A stretch of 64,000 nt of DNA, from assembly GCF_003173355.1 (NCBI RefSeq), contig NZ_QGMY01000006.1, positions 310,001 to 374,000 of the forward strand, read 5' to 3'. Source of the stretch: Methanospirillum lacunae. GTDB lineage: Archaea; Halobacteriota; Methanomicrobia; Methanomicrobiales; Methanospirillaceae. Every line of letters begins with the position of its first letter. The first letter of the stretch is position 1. The notes under the pieces were generated by a model. The model was given only the letters and a program-made list of their open reading frames with translations, ran no database searches and was not told the origin of the DNA. Below, in pieces: positions 34,768 to 52,773 of the stretch. Both the position numbers and the translations under genes were made by a program.

Positions 34768-34808
34768 CCCGGATGTGACGGTTATCCACAAAATGAAGGT
34801 AATTACGC

Positions 34809-34820
34809 AATATATTTAAT
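34809..34820 (+). promoter_or_regulatory. TATA box of the TPR-CheC gene
   Basis: AATATATTTAAT lies about 90 bases before the ATG at 34907. The expected start of transcription, about 25 bases on, falls at the edge of an 11-bp inverted repeat at 34843. Confidence 0.5.
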
Positions 34821-34842
34821 CTATACACCAGATAGTTCTATT

Positions 34843-34874
34843 ATCAGGGTTCCAGAGTACCAGGGAACCCTGAT
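34843..34874 (+). promoter_or_regulatory. Perfect 11-bp inverted repeat at the predicted transcript start
   Basis: ATCAGGGTTCC and GGAACCCTGAT pair perfectly across a 10-base spacer. The site lies just after the TATA box and before the TPR-CheC start. It could be an operator for a dimeric repressor or a 5'-leader hairpin; sequence alone does not decide. Confidence 0.6.
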
Positions 34875-34906: not shown

Positions 34907-36865
34907 ATGGACACCGCTAATAGGCGTGAACTTAAAAATCTTCTCAGGCGGGGGGAGGATGCTCTTCTTCGACATGACTACGAGCGGGCGTCAACATATT
35001 TCAGGCGGGCATACACCACAGATCCGGGAAATATTACAGCCATTACAAACCTGGGATATGTATATGCAAGAATGGGCCGATTCTCCCACGCACAGAAGTG
35101 TTTTATCACAGCATTGGATATTGATCCCGACAACCAGGTAGCAAGAAAGAACTTAAGCCTCCTGATGAGTCCGGAGAAAGAGAGACGACCGCCATCTTCA
35201 CCACAGGTGCGGGGACGGCCGGCAGAGGAGATTTTTCTCAGGTACCTCGAGTGGGGAAACCTGCAGATGAAACAAGGTAACTATTACGCTGCAATCCAGT
35301 ATTTTAAACAAGCGAGTAGAATTCATCCTGATTTTATCGAACCACATCTGAAGATCGGACTTAGTTATGAAGAACTTCAGGAATGGGCAGCTGCTGCAGG
35401 AGCTTTTACTGATGCCCTGGATATTTTTCCAAAAGACCCCATCGCACTTGAGCACTTAGATAAATGTAGGGGAATGAATAATGATGATTCTCAAAGAAAT
35501 TCAGAGAATGAAGCATCAATAGAATCATCTACCAAGGCAATGGATGAAGTCAGGCAGAAATCTGAAGAATATAATCAGCCACCAGATTTATTACAGAAGA
35601 TGGAGATGCCAACTACTTCTGACAAAACTCCATCCAAAACTGAAGATCTGGCACCGGAAAAACCTAAATCAGAAGATGATGTAATCCGGGCAATTCTTAA
35701 TCAGTACAGTGATCTTATTAGTTCGGGAAAATCTTCAGACAAAGGGCAAAAAGACCAAACCGGCGAACATATACCTGAAGAGGAAAAACCTGGAACATCA
35801 GAACCACCGGTTACGCCAGTTGTATCAAAAAAACAGCCACCGGTCAGTAGTGATGACATGGTCAGCAGTATATTGATGCAGTACCAGGATGATATTGCTG
35901 ATGAGAGTCAGTCTACATCCCCCGCTTCTGAACCTGAGTCTTCAGACAAAGGGCAAAAAAATCAGACTGGCGAACATATACCTGAAGAGGAAAAACCTGA
36001 AACGTCAGAACCACCGGTTACGCCAGTTGTGTCAAAAAAACAGCCACCGGTCAGTAGCGATGACATGGTCAGCAGTATATTGATGCAGTACCAGGATGAT
36101 ATTGCTGATGAGAGTCAGCCTACACCCCCTGCTTCTGAAACTGCGTCTTCAGAGAAGGATCAGGTACCATATACCGGCGATGCACCTTTGAGTGGAGAGA
36201 AGATGGACATAAATCAGGCACAATCCAGTGGAATCAGGGTCGATCTAAATGATAATCAGAAAGATGCTCTGCGTGAACTTGGAAACATCGGAGCATCCCA
36301 TGCAGCAACTACCCTCTCCACGATGCTGAATACCCCTATTATGCTTAATGTTCCAGAGATCAACATCACTGACTTTGAGCATATTAATACTGAAATTGCC
36401 CAGGAAAATTCTGCTATGGCCATATTTACCATGGAAGGGCAGATGGCCAAGGCAGGATATGTAATCCTGCACGTTCCCCGGGAATCAGTTGTGTTGATGA
36501 CTGGTATCATGCTGGGTATGCCTGACGATCCAGGGCGCGAACTCAACGAGATGGACGAGAGTGCTATCACTGAAATCGGAAATATCATGGTGTCAGCATT
36601 TCTGGACGGGACAGCAGAATTACTGGGAATCATTATGCTTCCCTCTCCCCCAAGAACAATATTTGACCTTCCTAAAAAAGTCTTTGACCTGATTATTGCA
36701 GAAAGTAATATTCGATATGATAATGTTGTCTTTTTCAGAACCGAACTAATCTGTGATGAACATGAACTTAATCTCAACATCTTCATGCTTCCAAACCCTC
36801 CGGTTCTTCAGGAGATCGTAAGAATGCTTGAGAAAATTATTGAAGACTCTGCACAAGGAAAATAA
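34907..36865 (+). CDS. TPR - linker - CheC fusion protein
   Basis: A 652-residue soluble protein with three parts. Residues about 5-185 form four TPR units (NITAITNLGYVYARMGRFSH, QGNYYAAIQYFKQASRIHPD and others). Residues 190-430 are a charged, Pro/Ser/Glu-rich linker with a 69-residue tandem repeat. Residues about 440-650 are a CheC-like domain with both phosphatase motifs: ELGNIGASHAATTL and EIGNIMVSAFLDG. CheC dephosphorylates CheY-P and binds CheD. The TPR part suggests docking to another protein. It is convergent with the che operon (37 bases between stops) and has its own promoter with an inverted repeat. Confidence 0.88.
   Translation: MDTANRRELKNLLRRGEDALLRHDYERASTYFRRAYTTDPGNITAITNLGYVYARMGRFSHAQKCFITALDIDPDNQVARKNLSLLMSPEKERRPPSSPQVRGRPAEEIFLRYLEWGNLQMKQGNYYAAIQYFKQASRIHPDFIEPHLKIGLSYEELQEWAAAAGAFTDALDIFPKDPIALEHLDKCRGMNNDDSQRNSENEASIESSTKAMDEVRQKSEEYNQPPDLLQKMEMPTTSDKTPSKTEDLAPEKPKSEDDVIRAILNQYSDLISSGKSSDKGQKDQTGEHIPEEEKPGTSEPPVTPVVSKKQPPVSSDDMVSSILMQYQDDIADESQSTSPASEPESSDKGQKNQTGEHIPEEEKPETSEPPVTPVVSKKQPPVSSDDMVSSILMQYQDDIADESQPTPPASETASSEKDQVPYTGDAPLSGEKMDINQAQSSGIRVDLNDNQKDALRELGNIGASHAATTLSTMLNTPIMLNVPEINITDFEHINTEIAQENSAMAIFTMEGQMAKAGYVILHVPRESVVLMTGIMLGMPDDPGRELNEMDESAITEIGNIMVSAFLDGTAELLGIIMLPSPPRTIFDLPKKVFDLIIAESNIRYDNVVFFRTELICDEHELNLNIFMLPNPPVLQEIVRMLEKIIEDSAQGK
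35732..36145 (+). repeat. Two tandem 207-bp units inside the TPR-CheC gene
   Basis: Unit 1 (35732-35938) and unit 2 (35939-36145) are nearly identical in DNA, differing at scattered positions, with a period of exactly 69 codons. Each begins SSDKGQK and ends with a helix-like segment SSDDMVSSILMQYQDDIAD. A weaker third relative, DDVIRAILNQYSDLISSG, precedes unit 1. This is recent in-frame amplification of a linker plus a short helical, possibly protein-binding, motif. Confidence 0.9.
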
Positions 36866-36902: not shown

Positions 36903-37406
36903 TTAAATTTCCCGGGTTGCTCCATCAGCCTGCCGAATAACAAGACGGCCACCCTCTCTTGGAAAATAGGTAATCGTGCGACCTACTGTCCCACCAATAT
37001 CCTCCTTTATAATTGGTATCGAATTTGCTTTGAGAAGATCACGAAGGGCATCTACATTTCGCTCGCCAATGTTAAGATTACCTGAAAAATTCTGAAACAT
37101 CGATGCACCTCCTGCAAGTTTTGCCTTTAAGGAAGAACTTTTGCACCCCTTCCCTGCAAGATTCTGTAGAAGGATAGTAACCGCAGTATCAGCATACTTT
37201 CCCTCACGCTCACCAGGTTTACCACTTGACTTAGGGAGCATAACATGGGCAAGTCCACCAATCTTTTTCTCTTCATCATGAAGGATCAACCCTACGCATG
37301 ACCCAAGACCAATAGAAGTCATCACAGTATTACCTACCGACCACTCACCAATGCCTATGATGACCAGATCTTTCTGATCCCGTGTAAATACCGGCGGCGT
37401 TGTCAT
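36903..37406 (-). CDS. cheD: Chemoreceptor glutamine deamidase CheD
   Basis: A 167-residue Che[13 protein letters not shown] holds the catalytic Cys, [11 protein letters not shown] the His, and AGGASMF and [10 protein letters not shown] are further family blocks. CheD deamidates receptor glutamines and is regulated by CheC binding. It is the last gene of the leftward che operon, 18 bases after cheA. Two CheC domains are available nearby as partners (in CheA and in the TPR fusion). Confidence 0.95.
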
Positions 37407-37424: not shown

Positions 37425-40400
37425 TTATCCAGAGGTGGAAATCACACTATCCATTCGTGCAAATAACTCATTGAGAAGCCCTTTACTGGGAAGCAGGATT
37501 ATATTTGCACTAATGTTATACTCAGCACACTGAAGTTCAGTCTTGAATAAAACCACTTCGTCCACATTTTCATCAATCTCCTGGGTTGCAATAATTGACT
37601 GAAGTGCTGCATGAGGCATGTCAATAACCATCGATGGAGGTGACGGGATCATGATAATTGAGAGCAGGGTTGCACAAGCATCAAGGAACGAGGAGGTCAT
37701 GATATTACCTATCTCATGCAGGGCACTCTTATCCATATCATCGATTTCCCTGTCAGAGGCACTCTGACCAAGCATGATGCTTGTCAGCCTGATAATTGAT
37801 TCCTTGGGAATATGTATGATAATATAACCGTTCCCAACTAGTTGCCCCTGAATCTGAAATACCACCATCGCTGCTTCGGTGTCATCCAGGTAATAGCGGA
37901 GGTTCTGAAGTTGTACCAGTATAATTTCAGGTACATGAATCGAAATGAGGGTGTTCAGTATAGTTGAGAGTGTGGTAGCTGCATGAGAAGCACCGATATT
38001 GCCTAGTTCACGCAGTTCATCAGCCTGAATATCAGTTATAAGATGCTCTCCATCAGCAATCACATTGTTCTTCATAACCTTCTTCACCCTTTTACCTGAA
38101 TTCTTCTTCGCAGATTTCTGACCAGAACCTTCCCGGAGTATCGCTTTTACATCAAGAACAGGTACAACTTCCCCGTCTCCGGGAATAGTAACCCCGCTCA
38201 CACCATCGCAGGTACCTACAAATTTCGAGAGGGGCTTAATGACAACTTCCTGCTGTCCCTCTATCAGATCAGCGATGACGGCTCCCTTCCGGTTCTGGTT
38301 CTGCAGAACCACGATGACTTCTTCGCTCTTTGACCTGCCAAACATATCATCAAGCCTGTAAAGAACGATGATCTCATCGCGCATCAGTATGCCTTCTCCA
38401 TGACCAATGTTCTGGATAGGGAAGGCAGCAAGACTTGCCACTTCTGCCACATTAGTGATGGGGATCGCACACCTGCGGTTGTTGATCCTGATCATCATCA
38501 CCATGACGATTGCCATAGTCGGTGGAAGGACAAGTTCAAACCGACTTCCCTGGCCAAATACCGACTCCAGTTTGATTGTCCCCTGGAGAGAGGCAATGGT
38601 TGTTCTGACTACATCTAGTCCGACTCCCCTGCCACTGATATCAGTGATCTTATCAGCTGTAGAGAAACCAGGAAGGAAGAGGAGATCGTTGATCTCCGAT
38701 TCAGACATGGCTGCGAGTGCCTCTTCAGTGGCTAAACCACGCTCAAGTGCTTTCTTTTTAATCTTTTCCTGGTTGATACCCGCACCATCATCCTCAATGA
38801 CGATGACCACGTTATCCTTATCACGGGAGGCAGAGAGTTTCAGAGTCCCTTTAGGATTTTTCCCATTTCGAATACGAACATCAGGAGGCTCTATCCCATG
38901 ATCGAGCCCATTTCTGATAAGGTGAAGGAGGGGATCATTGAGACCATCCATTACGCTGCGGTCAAGTTCAGTTTCACCACCTTCGACGATGAAATCAACC
39001 TCTTTCCCCTCCTTGGTAGCAATATCACGAACGGTTCGTGGAAACCTGTTGAAAATATGGTTGAGTGGAATCATCCTGATGTCCATCATCATAACCTGAA
39101 GGTCAGCCACCGACCTCCCGACCATGTTGAGAGTCTCATCCAGTTCCTTTATCTTGTATTCCTGGGCTATCTGTTCAAGTCTGCCACGGTTGATCACCAG
39201 ATCCTCAACCAGGTTCATCATGTGATCGAGACGATCAATATCAACCCTGATATTCTTGACTTCACGCTTCTTCTCAACCTTTTCTCCTGCAGAAATACGT
39301 GAAGGAGCAAGGGTTCCATTCTGGTGCTCCTCAATTCCTGATCCAGAAAGAATGGGATCTGATACATCCTGTATCAGGGAGACAGAAGAACTTTTGATAT
39401 CAGACCCTTTCAAAAATGATTTGATCCCCTCTTCAGAAAAGTCTGAACTGGTTAATTCAAAATCGAAAATTCCAGAAAAGGTACCGCTATCTTCAATGAC
39501 TTCACGCCTCGGAGAGATATTTGTAAGGGCACCGTGTGACTCAAGATTCTGCAAAAGAAGCATGGCCCTCAGATTTTTTGAGTCTACACTCGGAGAGAGC
39601 TCAACATGTATCGCATACCTGCTTGCATGTTCAAAGTCGGGTACTGGTTCCACACTTTCTTTTTTCTGTGGAGAAACCTCCTCTGACAGTGAAGATGATC
39701 TGATATCTGAAATTGCAAGGATTGTTTCTACTGCCGCTTTTCCTGCATTAGTAACAAAGGTAAGATCAATAATGCCATTAAATGAGGGATCATCTTCAAC
39801 AACAGTTCTTGATGGAGAAATTGCTGATATACTTCCAATACTCTCCAGGTTCTGAAGGATCAACATTGAGCGCAGGTTTATACTGTCCACTTCAGATGAG
39901 AGTTCAATATGAAGTTTGTACTCCGCGTTTCCTGCCTGATCATATGATTCGTATGCCGGATTTTCATACATATCCCCGGCAGGTTCAACTTCAGTTCCAG
40001 AATCAGGTATTACTGGTTCCTTCTTCTCCACTGTTGAAGGAGATGACCCGGACAACCATGCTTTTAACGCAGAGACACGCGCATCCCGATGCTCTAAAAG
40101 CCCCTCCCCACCAGCTTCGATGTCATCGATCATTGACTCGATATCATCAACACCAGCAAGCAGATCATCCATGAGAGCCTGACTCACATGCAGATTGCCA
40201 CTACGGATCTGGGAGAATACATCTTCAAGTGCATGACAGATCTCCTCCATGTGCATAAATCCCATAGAAGCAGACATACCCTTGAGTGAGTGCGCAGACC
40301 GGAAGATCTCATCAATGGCGTGAGAGTCGGTCCCCTGTTCAAGAATCAGGAGATTACTAACAATACTTTCATGATTCTCCCGCGATTCAGCAACATACAG

Positions 40401-40427
40401 ACTCCGGTATGCATCAAGATCTGACAT
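37425..40427 (-). CDS. cheA: CheA histidine kinase with duplicated N-terminal regulatory domain and C-terminal CheC domain
   Basis: A 1000-residue fusion. Residues 1-110 are an HPt domain (phospho-His 46 in FRSAHSLKGMSA). Residues about 171-248 and 272-349 are two similar copies of a ferredoxin-like, P2-type domain (ELSSEVDSINLRSMLILQNLE against ELSPSVDSKNLRAMLLLQNLE). Residues 390-460 dimerise; 460-635 are the ATPase (HLIRNGLDHG, EDDGAGIN, GRGVGLDVV); 640-767 are CheW-like. After a lysine-rich linker, residues 803-1000 are a CheC phosphatase (ELGNIGASHAATTL, EIGNIMTSSFLDA). Kinase and CheY-P phosphatase thus share one chain. It starts 4 bases after cheB. Confidence 0.95.
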   Translation of the reverse strand: MSDLDAYRSLYVAESRENHESIVSNLLILEQGTDSHAIDEIFRSAHSLKGMSASMGFMHMEEICHALEDVFSQIRSGNLHVSQALMDDLLAGVDDIESMIDDIEAGGEGLLEHRDARVSALKAWLSGSSPSTVEKKEPVIPDSGTEVEPAGDMYENPAYESYDQAGNAEYKLHIELSSEVDSINLRSMLILQNLESIGSISAISPSRTVVEDDPSFNGIIDLTFVTNAGKAAVETILAISDIRSSSLSEEVSPQKKESVEPVPDFEHASRYAIHVELSPSVDSKNLRAMLLLQNLESHGALTNISPRREVIEDSGTFSGIFDFELTSSDFSEEGIKSFLKGSDIKSSSVSLIQDVSDPILSGSGIEEHQNGTLAPSRISAGEKVEKKREVKNIRVDIDRLDHMMNLVEDLVINRGRLEQIAQEYKIKELDETLNMVGRSVADLQVMMMDIRMIPLNHIFNRFPRTVRDIATKEGKEVDFIVEGGETELDRSVMDGLNDPLLHLIRNGLDHGIEPPDVRIRNGKNPKGTLKLSASRDKDNVVIVIEDDGAGINQEKIKKKALERGLATEEALAAMSESEINDLLFLPGFSTADKITDISGRGVGLDVVRTTIASLQGTIKLESVFGQGSRFELVLPPTMAIVMVMMIRINNRRCAIPITNVAEVASLAAFPIQNIGHGEGILMRDEIIVLYRLDDMFGRSKSEEVIVVLQNQNRKGAVIADLIEGQQEVVIKPLSKFVGTCDGVSGVTIPGDGEVVPVLDVKAILREGSGQKSAKKNSGKRVKKVMKNNVIADGEHLITDIQADELRELGNIGASHAATTLSTILNTLISIHVPEIILVQLQNLRYYLDDTEAAMVVFQIQGQLVGNGYIIIHIPKESIIRLTSIMLGQSASDREIDDMDKSALHEIGNIMTSSFLDACATLLSIIMIPSPPSMVIDMPHAALQSIIATQEIDENVDEVVLFKTELQCAEYNISANIILLPSKGLLNELFARMDSVISTSG

Positions 40428-42748: not shown

Positions 42749-43825
42749 TTATTTGTTCTTTGCTTTTTTAGTAATGATTTTCATGATATCTTCAAGTTCT
42801 TCTGCCAGTTCTTCGGCAGTAACATGGACATCCTTGAGATCTCTGAGGAGAACATCATCATCACGTTTCTTTAGATCACTAATATCTGCCTTGAGCGACG
42901 CAATTAGATCGTCATCACCCAGACCACCTTTACCCTGGGAGAGTTCAAACTGCTCCTCGCCACCTCCCGAGTCATCATCTCCCCCATACATATAAGGAGT
43001 CTCTTCAGACGAACTGTAAGAGGCGAGGTCACTCCCACTGATCGAATCGCCACCCTCCATGGTTGAAATGATCTCACCACCAGAGTCTGATCCGATCTCA
43101 ATAGTGCTCGAGTATATCTCATCAACCTCATCAGATGGTTCATCAGTATCAATCACCACATCCTCTTCTTCGTCACTCGTGGTGATATCCATCCTTCGAA
43201 CCTGTTCTTCAGAGGGGAGTTCCTGCATAACATCAGTATCGCCATAGGGAGTACGTACTGAATCAAATTCAGGGTTTACTGATTCCAGTTCTGCATCGAT
43301 ATCAAGACTATCATCAAGATCAAGACCATCAAGGAGATCATCTCCCAGATTATCATCATCTTTCTGAGATATGCCCGAAGATGACTCCCCGGAGTCAGAA
43401 GAATCTCCTGCTTCTTTTACAGAATCATCCTTTTTTACCTTTTTGGTAGGTTTTTCTTTCTTTTCAGTTTTTCCTCCGGTTTTTGGTAGAGAAAGATTTA
43501 CAGAAGGAAGTGACGGCATCTTTGGGAGTTTCTGAAGCAACCCTGATATGAGACCACCACCGGAACCTTTTGATGCTGTATTCTTCTCCACCTTCGATTT
43601 TGGCTTCTTTGGTTTTGGTTTTCGGTTTTTTAGTTTTATCCGTAGTTCCTTGATCAGTTCAGAGAGAATGAGCATACCGGTTGCAACCATCAGACCTAAT
43701 GCAAGCCCAATTACAACCATCATCAGGTATAGAACCGGGATATCAAATATCAGGAGAATTGAACCGCCAAGCACTATCGTAATAAAGATGAGGAGACGGC
43801 GGGTCGAATCGGTTAGTTGCATCAT
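42749..43825 (-). CDS. Acidic two-helix membrane protein between arlJ and cheF
   Basis: A 358-residue protein. Two membrane helices (about 10-28 and 32-55) are followed by a very basic segment (KNRKPKPKKPKSK), a Lys/Pro/Gly linker and some 200 highly acidic residues rich in D, E and S. The C-terminus DLKDVHVTAEELAEELEDI resembles the short conserved tail of some ArlC/D/E-type proteins. Position and C-terminus suggest an archaellum motor-complex accessory, perhaps the membrane-bound scaffold role that ArlX or ArlC/D/E has elsewhere; this is inference. It begins 2 bases before the arlJ stop region ends. Confidence 0.65.
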   Translation of the reverse strand: MMQLTDSTRRLLIFITIVLGGSILLIFDIPVLYLMMVVIGLALGLMVATGMLILSELIKELRIKLKNRKPKPKKPKSKVEKNTASKGSGGGLISGLLQKLPKMPSLPSVNLSLPKTGGKTEKKEKPTKKVKKDDSVKEAGDSSDSGESSSGISQKDDDNLGDDLLDGLDLDDSLDIDAELESVNPEFDSVRTPYGDTDVMQELPSEEQVRRMDITTSDEEEDVVIDTDEPSDEVDEIYSSTIEIGSDSGGEIISTMEGGDSISGSDLASYSSSEETPYMYGGDDDSGGGEEQFELSQGKGGLGDDDLIASLKADISDLKKRDDDVLLRDLKDVHVTAEELAEELEDIMKIITKKAKNK

Positions 43826-52002: not shown

Positions 52003-52773
52003 ATGAAAAAAATGATCCTGTTGTTTTTGATCAGCATGTCTGTCCTATGGTTAACCGGTCAGGTGTGGGCAGATACCAATACCAGTCTGAAAACGGCTCA
52101 AGATCATTACACGATGGGTAATGCATTCTATAGTTATGGCATTGTAGAGAATGCAACCCGTGAATATCAGATAGCAGTCAGTATGGATCCCAATTTATCT
52201 GATGCCTGGAACAATCTGGGTCTGAGCCTGACAGCACAGAAACGGTACTCAGAGGCAAAGGATGCATTAGAGAATGCAACCCGCCTTAATTCCACAGACC
52301 CAGAAGGTTGGTACAACTTGGGCTATACACTTGGAATGCTTGGCAACAAGTCAGAAGAGGTATCTGCATATGAGAAGGCTATCAGTATCAACCCGAATAT
52401 GACAATTGCCTGGCGAAATATTGGTGTTGTCAGATACGAGGAGCAGAACTATACCGGAGCGGCAGAGGCATTCGAAAAGGCAACGAAGTTTGATCCAAGT
52501 TCGGCTCTTGGATGGTATTACCTTGGAACTGTGTATGAAAAGACCGGAAACCTGACTGGTGCTGCAGATGTCCTAAAACGAGCAGTTGATATGGATAAAA
52601 ATCTCACTATGGCAAAAGACCGGCTTAAAGCAGTAGAGAAAAATCTCTCCGACAGTTCTTCAAGTTCATCAGTCACTCCTTCTCAAGCAACAGGCAAAAA
52701 AACTCCCCTTCCAGCGGTAGTTGTTATCTTCTCACTGGTTGTTGCCGCGACTGTAATGTTCTTTAGAAGATAA
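52003..52773 (+). CDS. Secreted TPR protein with C-terminal anchor
   Basis: A 256-residue protein: signal peptide (residues 1-23, ending VWA), five TPR units (for example DAWNNLGLSLTAQKRYSEAK and IAWRNIGVVRYEEQNYTGAA), a serine-rich linker (SDSSSSSSV) and a C-terminal helix preceded by KKTPLPAV and followed by FFRR. The short motif, hydrophobic helix and Arg tail copy the layout of archaeosortase (PGF/PEF-CTERM-like) signals, though TPLP is not a motif I can assign. It has many N-x-S/T sites. Likely a cell-surface scaffold; partner unknown. Confidence 0.78.
   Translation: MKKMILLFLISMSVLWLTGQVWADTNTSLKTAQDHYTMGNAFYSYGIVENATREYQIAVSMDPNLSDAWNNLGLSLTAQKRYSEAKDALENATRLNSTDPEGWYNLGYTLGMLGNKSEEVSAYEKAISINPNMTIAWRNIGVVRYEEQNYTGAAEAFEKATKFDPSSALGWYYLGTVYEKTGNLTGAADVLKRAVDMDKNLTMAKDRLKAVEKNLSDSSSSSSVTPSQATGKKTPLPAVVVIFSLVVAATVMFFRR

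Follow-up and report, generated by a model that had tools for sequence, protein, structure and literature searches.

Gene and domain architecture of TPR-CheC

We analysed a 64,000-nt stretch of the Methanospirillum lacunae genome (the window), in which one open reading frame joins four TPRs to a CheC domain (TPR-CheC) and converges on cheD and a cluster of chemotaxis (che) and archaellum (arl) genes. The features of the locus are listed in Table 1.

Table 1. Features of the TPR-CheC locus (positions in the window)
Feature	Position	Strand	Remarks
TATA-like promoter box CAATATATTTAATCTATACAC	34808..34828	+	upstream-region alignment
11-bp inverted repeat, possible operator	34843..34874	.	not conserved
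TPR-CheC fusion gene	34907..36865	+	652 aa ORF
TPR 1-2 and capping helix	34907..35170	+	residues 1-88; Pfam, AlphaFold2
TPR 3-4 and capping helix	35216..35506	+	residues about 104-200; Pfam, AlphaFold2
Disordered acidic linker	35507..36247	+	residues 201-447, net charge -28; low pLDDT, composition
Linker motif copy M1 SEDDVIRAILNQYSDLI	35669..35719	+	alignment, profile; AlphaFold2 weak helix 256-271
207-nt tandem duplication, two units	35732..35938 / 35939..36145	+	94% identical, in-frame
Linker motif copy M2a SSDDMVSSILMQYQDDI	35846..35896	+	alignment, profile
Linker motif copy M2b	36053..36103	+	third copy, product of tandem duplication
Pre-CheC linker motif M3, [IV]PxTGxAPL	36161..36193	+	conserved, 12 genus members aligned
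CheC domain	36239..36853	+	residues 445-649, with E457/N460 and E556/N559
cheD, convergent neighbour of TPR-CheC	36903..37406	-	PF03975 E 4.8e-31
cheA with C-terminal CheC domain	37425..40427	-	1000 aa
CheC domain of CheA-CheC	37452..38039	-	residues 797-992

Pfam searches of TPR-CheC return TPR_2 (E 7e-21), with four stretches that each pass alone, and CheC (PF04509; E 6.5e-18, 64.8 bits against a cut-off of 22) over two stretches; a SpoA/FliN domain was not matched up to E 0.1. Tandem 34-residue helix-turn-helix repeats are thus present according to TPR_2, and they appear as TPR folds in AlphaFold2 and as TPR matches in Foldseek. Using an alignment of 63 rows, AlphaFold2 predicts both TPR blocks and the CheC domain with confidence and the linker, about residues 201-447, with low confidence; the CheC domain folded well at this depth and poorly in a 13-row run. 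Together, these analyses bear out the architecture of four TPRs, a linker and a CheC domain proposed in a preliminary description of the window. The linker, given there as 240 residues, is about 247 residues long here, but this length is partly local, as 69 residues come from a duplication that is missing in all 12 other relatives. The TPR module has no close paralogue, its best other match in the M. lacunae genome being 29% identical (E 7e-10).

The CheC domain retains both active-site signatures

The top Foldseek match to TPR-CheC is Thermotoga maritima CheC (2F9Z/1XKR; for 2F9Z_B, E 1.6e-12 and TMt 0.83); Haloarcula CheC comes next together with T. maritima FliY, and further down are designed TPR arrays and FliM. 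In phmmer alignments, E457/N460 and E556/N559 line up with the E/N pairs that we take to be the catalytic residues of T. maritima CheC. Both E-x2-N signatures are intact in all 13 TPR-CheC proteins, and an inactive enzyme, one half of the refuting condition set in the preliminary description, is rejected on this ground; the invariance of the E/N pairs in the 57 other CheC rows, and in part that in the 63-row alignment, is biased, these rows having been selected by a motif filter. D587, a candidate counterpart of B. subtilis D149, is invariant throughout the 63-row alignment. In sister genera, the cheA-linked CheC shares 43-56% identity with the domain. Judged from its fold and both active-site signatures, TPR-CheC is probably a lineage-specific CheY-P phosphatase of the CheC family.

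The linker carries a conserved and repeated motif

The linker contains one to three copies of a short motif, D-D-x-V-x-S-I-L-x-Q-Y: two in genus members, three in the window and one in G047, a genome of a sister genus. The third copy in the window arose through the 207-nt tandem duplication, which looks recent. Motif M3, close to the CheC domain, is weaker in G047. Among six-frame stretches of at least 80 residues in the window, three of the four matches to [ILVM]L.Q[YF] are the linker motif copies. A 24-position profile of the motif found TPR-CheC as the sole protein in each of the four genus genomes scanned, other matches having E values of at least 0.6. Searched with the same profile, the PDB gave matches no better than E 0.78, none of them to FliM, and Pfam gave no match. 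In the motif windows, which were picked after the alignment was seen, 18 of 42 columns are invariant, against 1 of 74; because of this choice the p-value of the contrast is disregarded.

The N-terminal CheY-P-binding peptide of FliY is of the LSQ-x-EIDALL type. Five CheY-binding peptides were scored against the motif profile: the E. coli FliM peptide was equalled or exceeded by 1.1% of random 20-mers and the remaining four by 3.6-12.5%. Homology of the motif to the CheY-binding peptides of FliM, FliY and CheZ is rejected, as these scores are not significant, and survives only as speculation.

We estimated Nei-Gojobori dN/dS in five pairs, with several dS values saturated or undefined; the ranges that follow are for pairs with estimable dS. 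Values are 0.01-0.03 for the CheC domain, 0.02-0.04 for TPR 1-2, 0.02-0.06 for TPR 3-4 and 0-0.09 for motif M2, compared with 0.27-0.46 for the linker outside the motifs. For M1, the three pairs involving the window give 0.19-0.34 and a further pair gives 0.02; conservation is less clear for M1 than for M2. Strong purifying selection thus acts on the TPRs, the CheC domain and one linker motif, but not on the rest of the linker. Together with conservation across the genus, this selection shows that the fusion matters.

A conserved promoter core, but no conserved operator

A TATA-like box, CAATRTATWTAATCTATACAC, lies about 80-100 bp upstream of the TPR-CheC start. It agrees fully with the consensus in 9 of the 12 Methanospirillum upstream regions, with variants in L039, L040 and L043, and is not recognisable upstream of TPR-CheC in G047. 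In the M. lacunae genome it occurs at a single site at up to three mismatches, and it was not found in the rest of the window, including the arl/che operon; a shared promoter therefore gives no support for co-expression. Of the 13 upstream regions, only that of M. lacunae has the inverted repeat downstream of the box; the short repeats in L039 and L043 are unrelated to it. The conserved core box supports the earlier proposal that the gene has its own promoter, but the suggestion that this promoter is regulated finds no support: it is rejected, as the repeat is private to M. lacunae, and only the core box is retained.

The neighbouring CheA carries its own CheC domain

TPR-CheC is convergent with cheD and the che-arl cluster, and so does face the che operon, as had been described. 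Past cheD the order is cheA, cheB, cheY, cheF and archaellum genes, several of whose names in the window are our presumptive assignments from order and size. The product of cheA (CheA-CheC) matches, in Pfam, Hpt, two P2 stretches, H-kinase_dim, HATPase_c, CheW and CheC. It is the sole H-kinase_dim match in the M. lacunae genome, which has 46 MCP-signal matches (45 of them over the cut-off) and three CheC proteins, namely TPR-CheC, CheA-CheC and a lone one. The lone protein (217 aa; contig C18, 1162-1815) sits on a long branch and groups with the CheA-CheC clade, not with TPR-CheC. Passages of the M. hungatei JF1 genome paper give 3 CheA and 4 CheC by annotation, so the numbers may vary with the species or with how the genes are counted.

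Distribution and gene order

The preliminary description had proposed a search for the same architecture. We found TPR-CheC at full length in all 12 Methanospirillum genomes, M. lacunae included, and in G047, which amounts to 13 of the 108 genomes of the family. A full-length profile search of the class returned the same 13 of 232 genomes over the whole length, and the other matches listed cover the CheC end only. In a scan of genome contigs, 9 of 51 loci match at full length, and their titles name Methanospirillum or Methanospirillaceae (seven) and Methanomicrobiales archaeon (two); named records with this protein are those of M. stamsii, M. hungatei, Methanospirillum sp. and related archaea. 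Long CheC frames of six haloarchaea (523-621 aa) gave CheC/CheX matches and none to TPR. Bacteria are covered solely by the 51 genome-contig loci, where matches outside Methanospirillaceae are to the CheC end only, and independent bacterial fusions are possible. Among the papers listed in full-text searches of open-licence literature, none was on a TPR-CheC protein.

The 3' end of an arginine decarboxylase gene aligns upstream of TPR-CheC in 13/13 loci. CheA-CheC lies on the opposite strand in 11 of them, and the other two have CheC fragments at contig edges. The sister genera examined have the order cheF-cheY-cheB-cheA-cheC-cheD, followed, where it falls within the stretch, by an opposite-strand arginine decarboxylase gene; in most related genera examined, CheC is a separate gene directly after cheA. 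In Methanospirillum and G047, the cheC that adjoins cheA is joined to it in one gene, and the place between cheD and the decarboxylase gene is taken by TPR-CheC; both points were confirmed for G047, G167, G182 and the window. G077 has a fused CheA-CheC yet no TPR-CheC in the gap between cheD and the decarboxylase gene. G201 also has the CheA-CheC fusion, and its contig ends at cheD. G200 was rejected as a fusion, its cheA and cheC lying in different, overlapping frames.

In a tree of 70 CheC domains, from which one spurious and one truncated row were left out, all 13 TPR-CheC proteins form one clade (100/100) that is not nested in CheA-CheC, and their sister group is left unresolved. The CheA-CheC proteins of Methanospirillum, G047 and G077 form one clade with the lone CheC (96/88), and G201 CheA-CheC falls outside it; the tree group labelled CheA-CheC holds 13 rows, including the mislabelled G200.

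Proposed function

It is plausible that TPR-CheC localises CheY-P dephosphorylation, the more so because the other CheC of the locus is fused to CheA. Our main reading, to which we give a probability of roughly 45%, is that TPR-CheC is a CheY-P phosphatase with TPR docking and a second attachment through its linker, and that it forms a sink separate from CheA-CheC, for example at the archaellum switch. The TPR array would dock the protein onto a partner, and the long flexible linker, with its one to three short conserved peptides, could provide reach and the second attachment. With the housekeeping CheC now part of CheA, a phosphatase would be built into the kinase, removing phosphate where it is made, at receptor arrays. 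TPR-CheC would remove phosphate at the site of its TPR partner, most likely a spatially separate sink, and the switch (CheF/ArlC-E) is a candidate site. TPRs by themselves do not reveal their ligand; the motor side is our leading guess because passages of PMC2666748 and PMC3579733 describe binding of Halobacterium CheC2 to CheF and CheD and propose a FliY-like role for CheC at the archaellum. Such a division of labour would resemble that between CheC and FliY in B. subtilis, and CheD may share or compete for TPR-CheC.

The main rival to this motor-side reading, which we consider unlikely, is that TPR-CheC acts above all by regulating CheD in response to CheY-P, in the mode of B. subtilis CheC. 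The TPR arm would then put the CheC-CheD pair, its binding strengthened by CheY-P, at the receptors, and hydrolysis would be secondary. It is in keeping with the convergent cheD next door, with the CheC-CheD complex (2F9Z) as source of the nearest solved structure, and with passages of PMC3513319 in which CheD binding outweighs phosphatase activity for B. subtilis CheC, a result that counts against our main reading. However, CheA-CheC would also be available for CheD at the array, and pure binding would not need the two E-x2-N sites that TPR-CheC fully retains.

According to passages of PMC5847659, M. hungatei JF-1 has 133 two-component proteins (histidine kinases and response regulators), which leaves room for substrates other than CheY. 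TPR-CheC could instead be a phosphatase or scaffold for non-CheY response regulators, recruited by its TPRs to a non-chemotaxis two-component pathway. A promoter box found nowhere else in the M. lacunae genome would suit this idea, but we think it rather improbable, as the gene remains adjacent to the che/arl cluster in all 13 loci and its CheC domain stays close in sequence to the cheA-linked CheC of sister genera.

A bolder form of the motor-side reading, which we regard as quite improbable, takes D-D-x-V-x-S-I-L-x-Q-Y-x-D as a peptide that, in Archaea, docks onto CheY-P, CheF or some other partner at the switch, with TPR-CheC as a motor-tethered phosphatase and the receptor-side one in CheA. 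As of 2009, passages of PMC2666748 state, an archaeal equivalent of the CheY-P-binding peptide had not been identified. If this form is true, Archaea would have built a motor-tethered phosphatase anew by joining a CheC to a TPR module. TPRs bind short peptides and the motif was found solely in TPR-CheC in the four genus genomes scanned, but we think it very unlikely that TPR-CheC binds its linker motifs with its own TPRs, in self-assembly or autoinhibition. AlphaFold2 predicts no more than a weak helix for the motif (pLDDT about 60), and its low pTM lends no support to a fixed domain arrangement; coming from a single-chain prediction, this is weak evidence.

Comparison with known systems

TPR-CheC shares its fold, both E-x2-N sites and a CheD neighbour with the CheC family (T. 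maritima CheC 1XKR/2F9Z; PF04509), and adds four TPRs and a long disordered linker with conserved short motifs. Like FliY (T. maritima 4HYN; B. subtilis), it has a CheC-type domain and an extra N-terminal binding region, and may serve CheY-P located at the motor. Unlike FliY, it has no SpoA/FliN match and its N-terminal part consists of TPRs; in contrast to both FliY and FliM, it has no significant match to a CheY-binding peptide. Halobacterium likewise has archaeal CheC paralogues with divided roles, namely CheC2, a binder of CheF1/2 and CheD, and the two-domain CheC3; according to passages of PMC3579733, however, these have the CheC domain on its own (CheC2) or doubled (CheC3). Like M. lacunae CheA-CheC, the CheA-CheC/CheX fusions of Leptospirae unite a kinase and a phosphatase in a single polypeptide; they are spirochete F1 CheAs in passages of PMC10542144, whereas the fusion described here is an archaeal CheA paired with a separate TPR-CheC. 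The passages on CheC in that paper do not mention an archaeal CheA-CheC fusion. What appears to be new here, as read from the genomes, is the motif repeated in the linker of TPR-CheC and the fact that the only CheA detected carries its own CheC, neither of which the preliminary description mentions.

The site and the speed of CheY-P removal shape the chemotaxis signal. Passages of PMC2666748 present phosphatase placement as a conserved principle in bacteria and call the role of archaeal CheCs unknown. A lineage with one CheC in CheA and another on a TPR arm therefore makes the placement question testable by tagging two proteins, and the short peptides that stay conserved while the rest of the linker evolves freely offer a defined bait for a partner search.

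Other genes in the window

Between the archaellum and cheF genes, positions 42749-43825 (minus strand) encode an acidic protein of 358 aa that is low in complexity and has membrane-like stretches near its N-terminus; it has no Pfam match over the cut-off, and relatives occur in several sister genera. A second TPR protein, encoded at 52003-52773 (plus strand), begins with a signal-like segment and has a hydrophobic stretch at its C-terminus.
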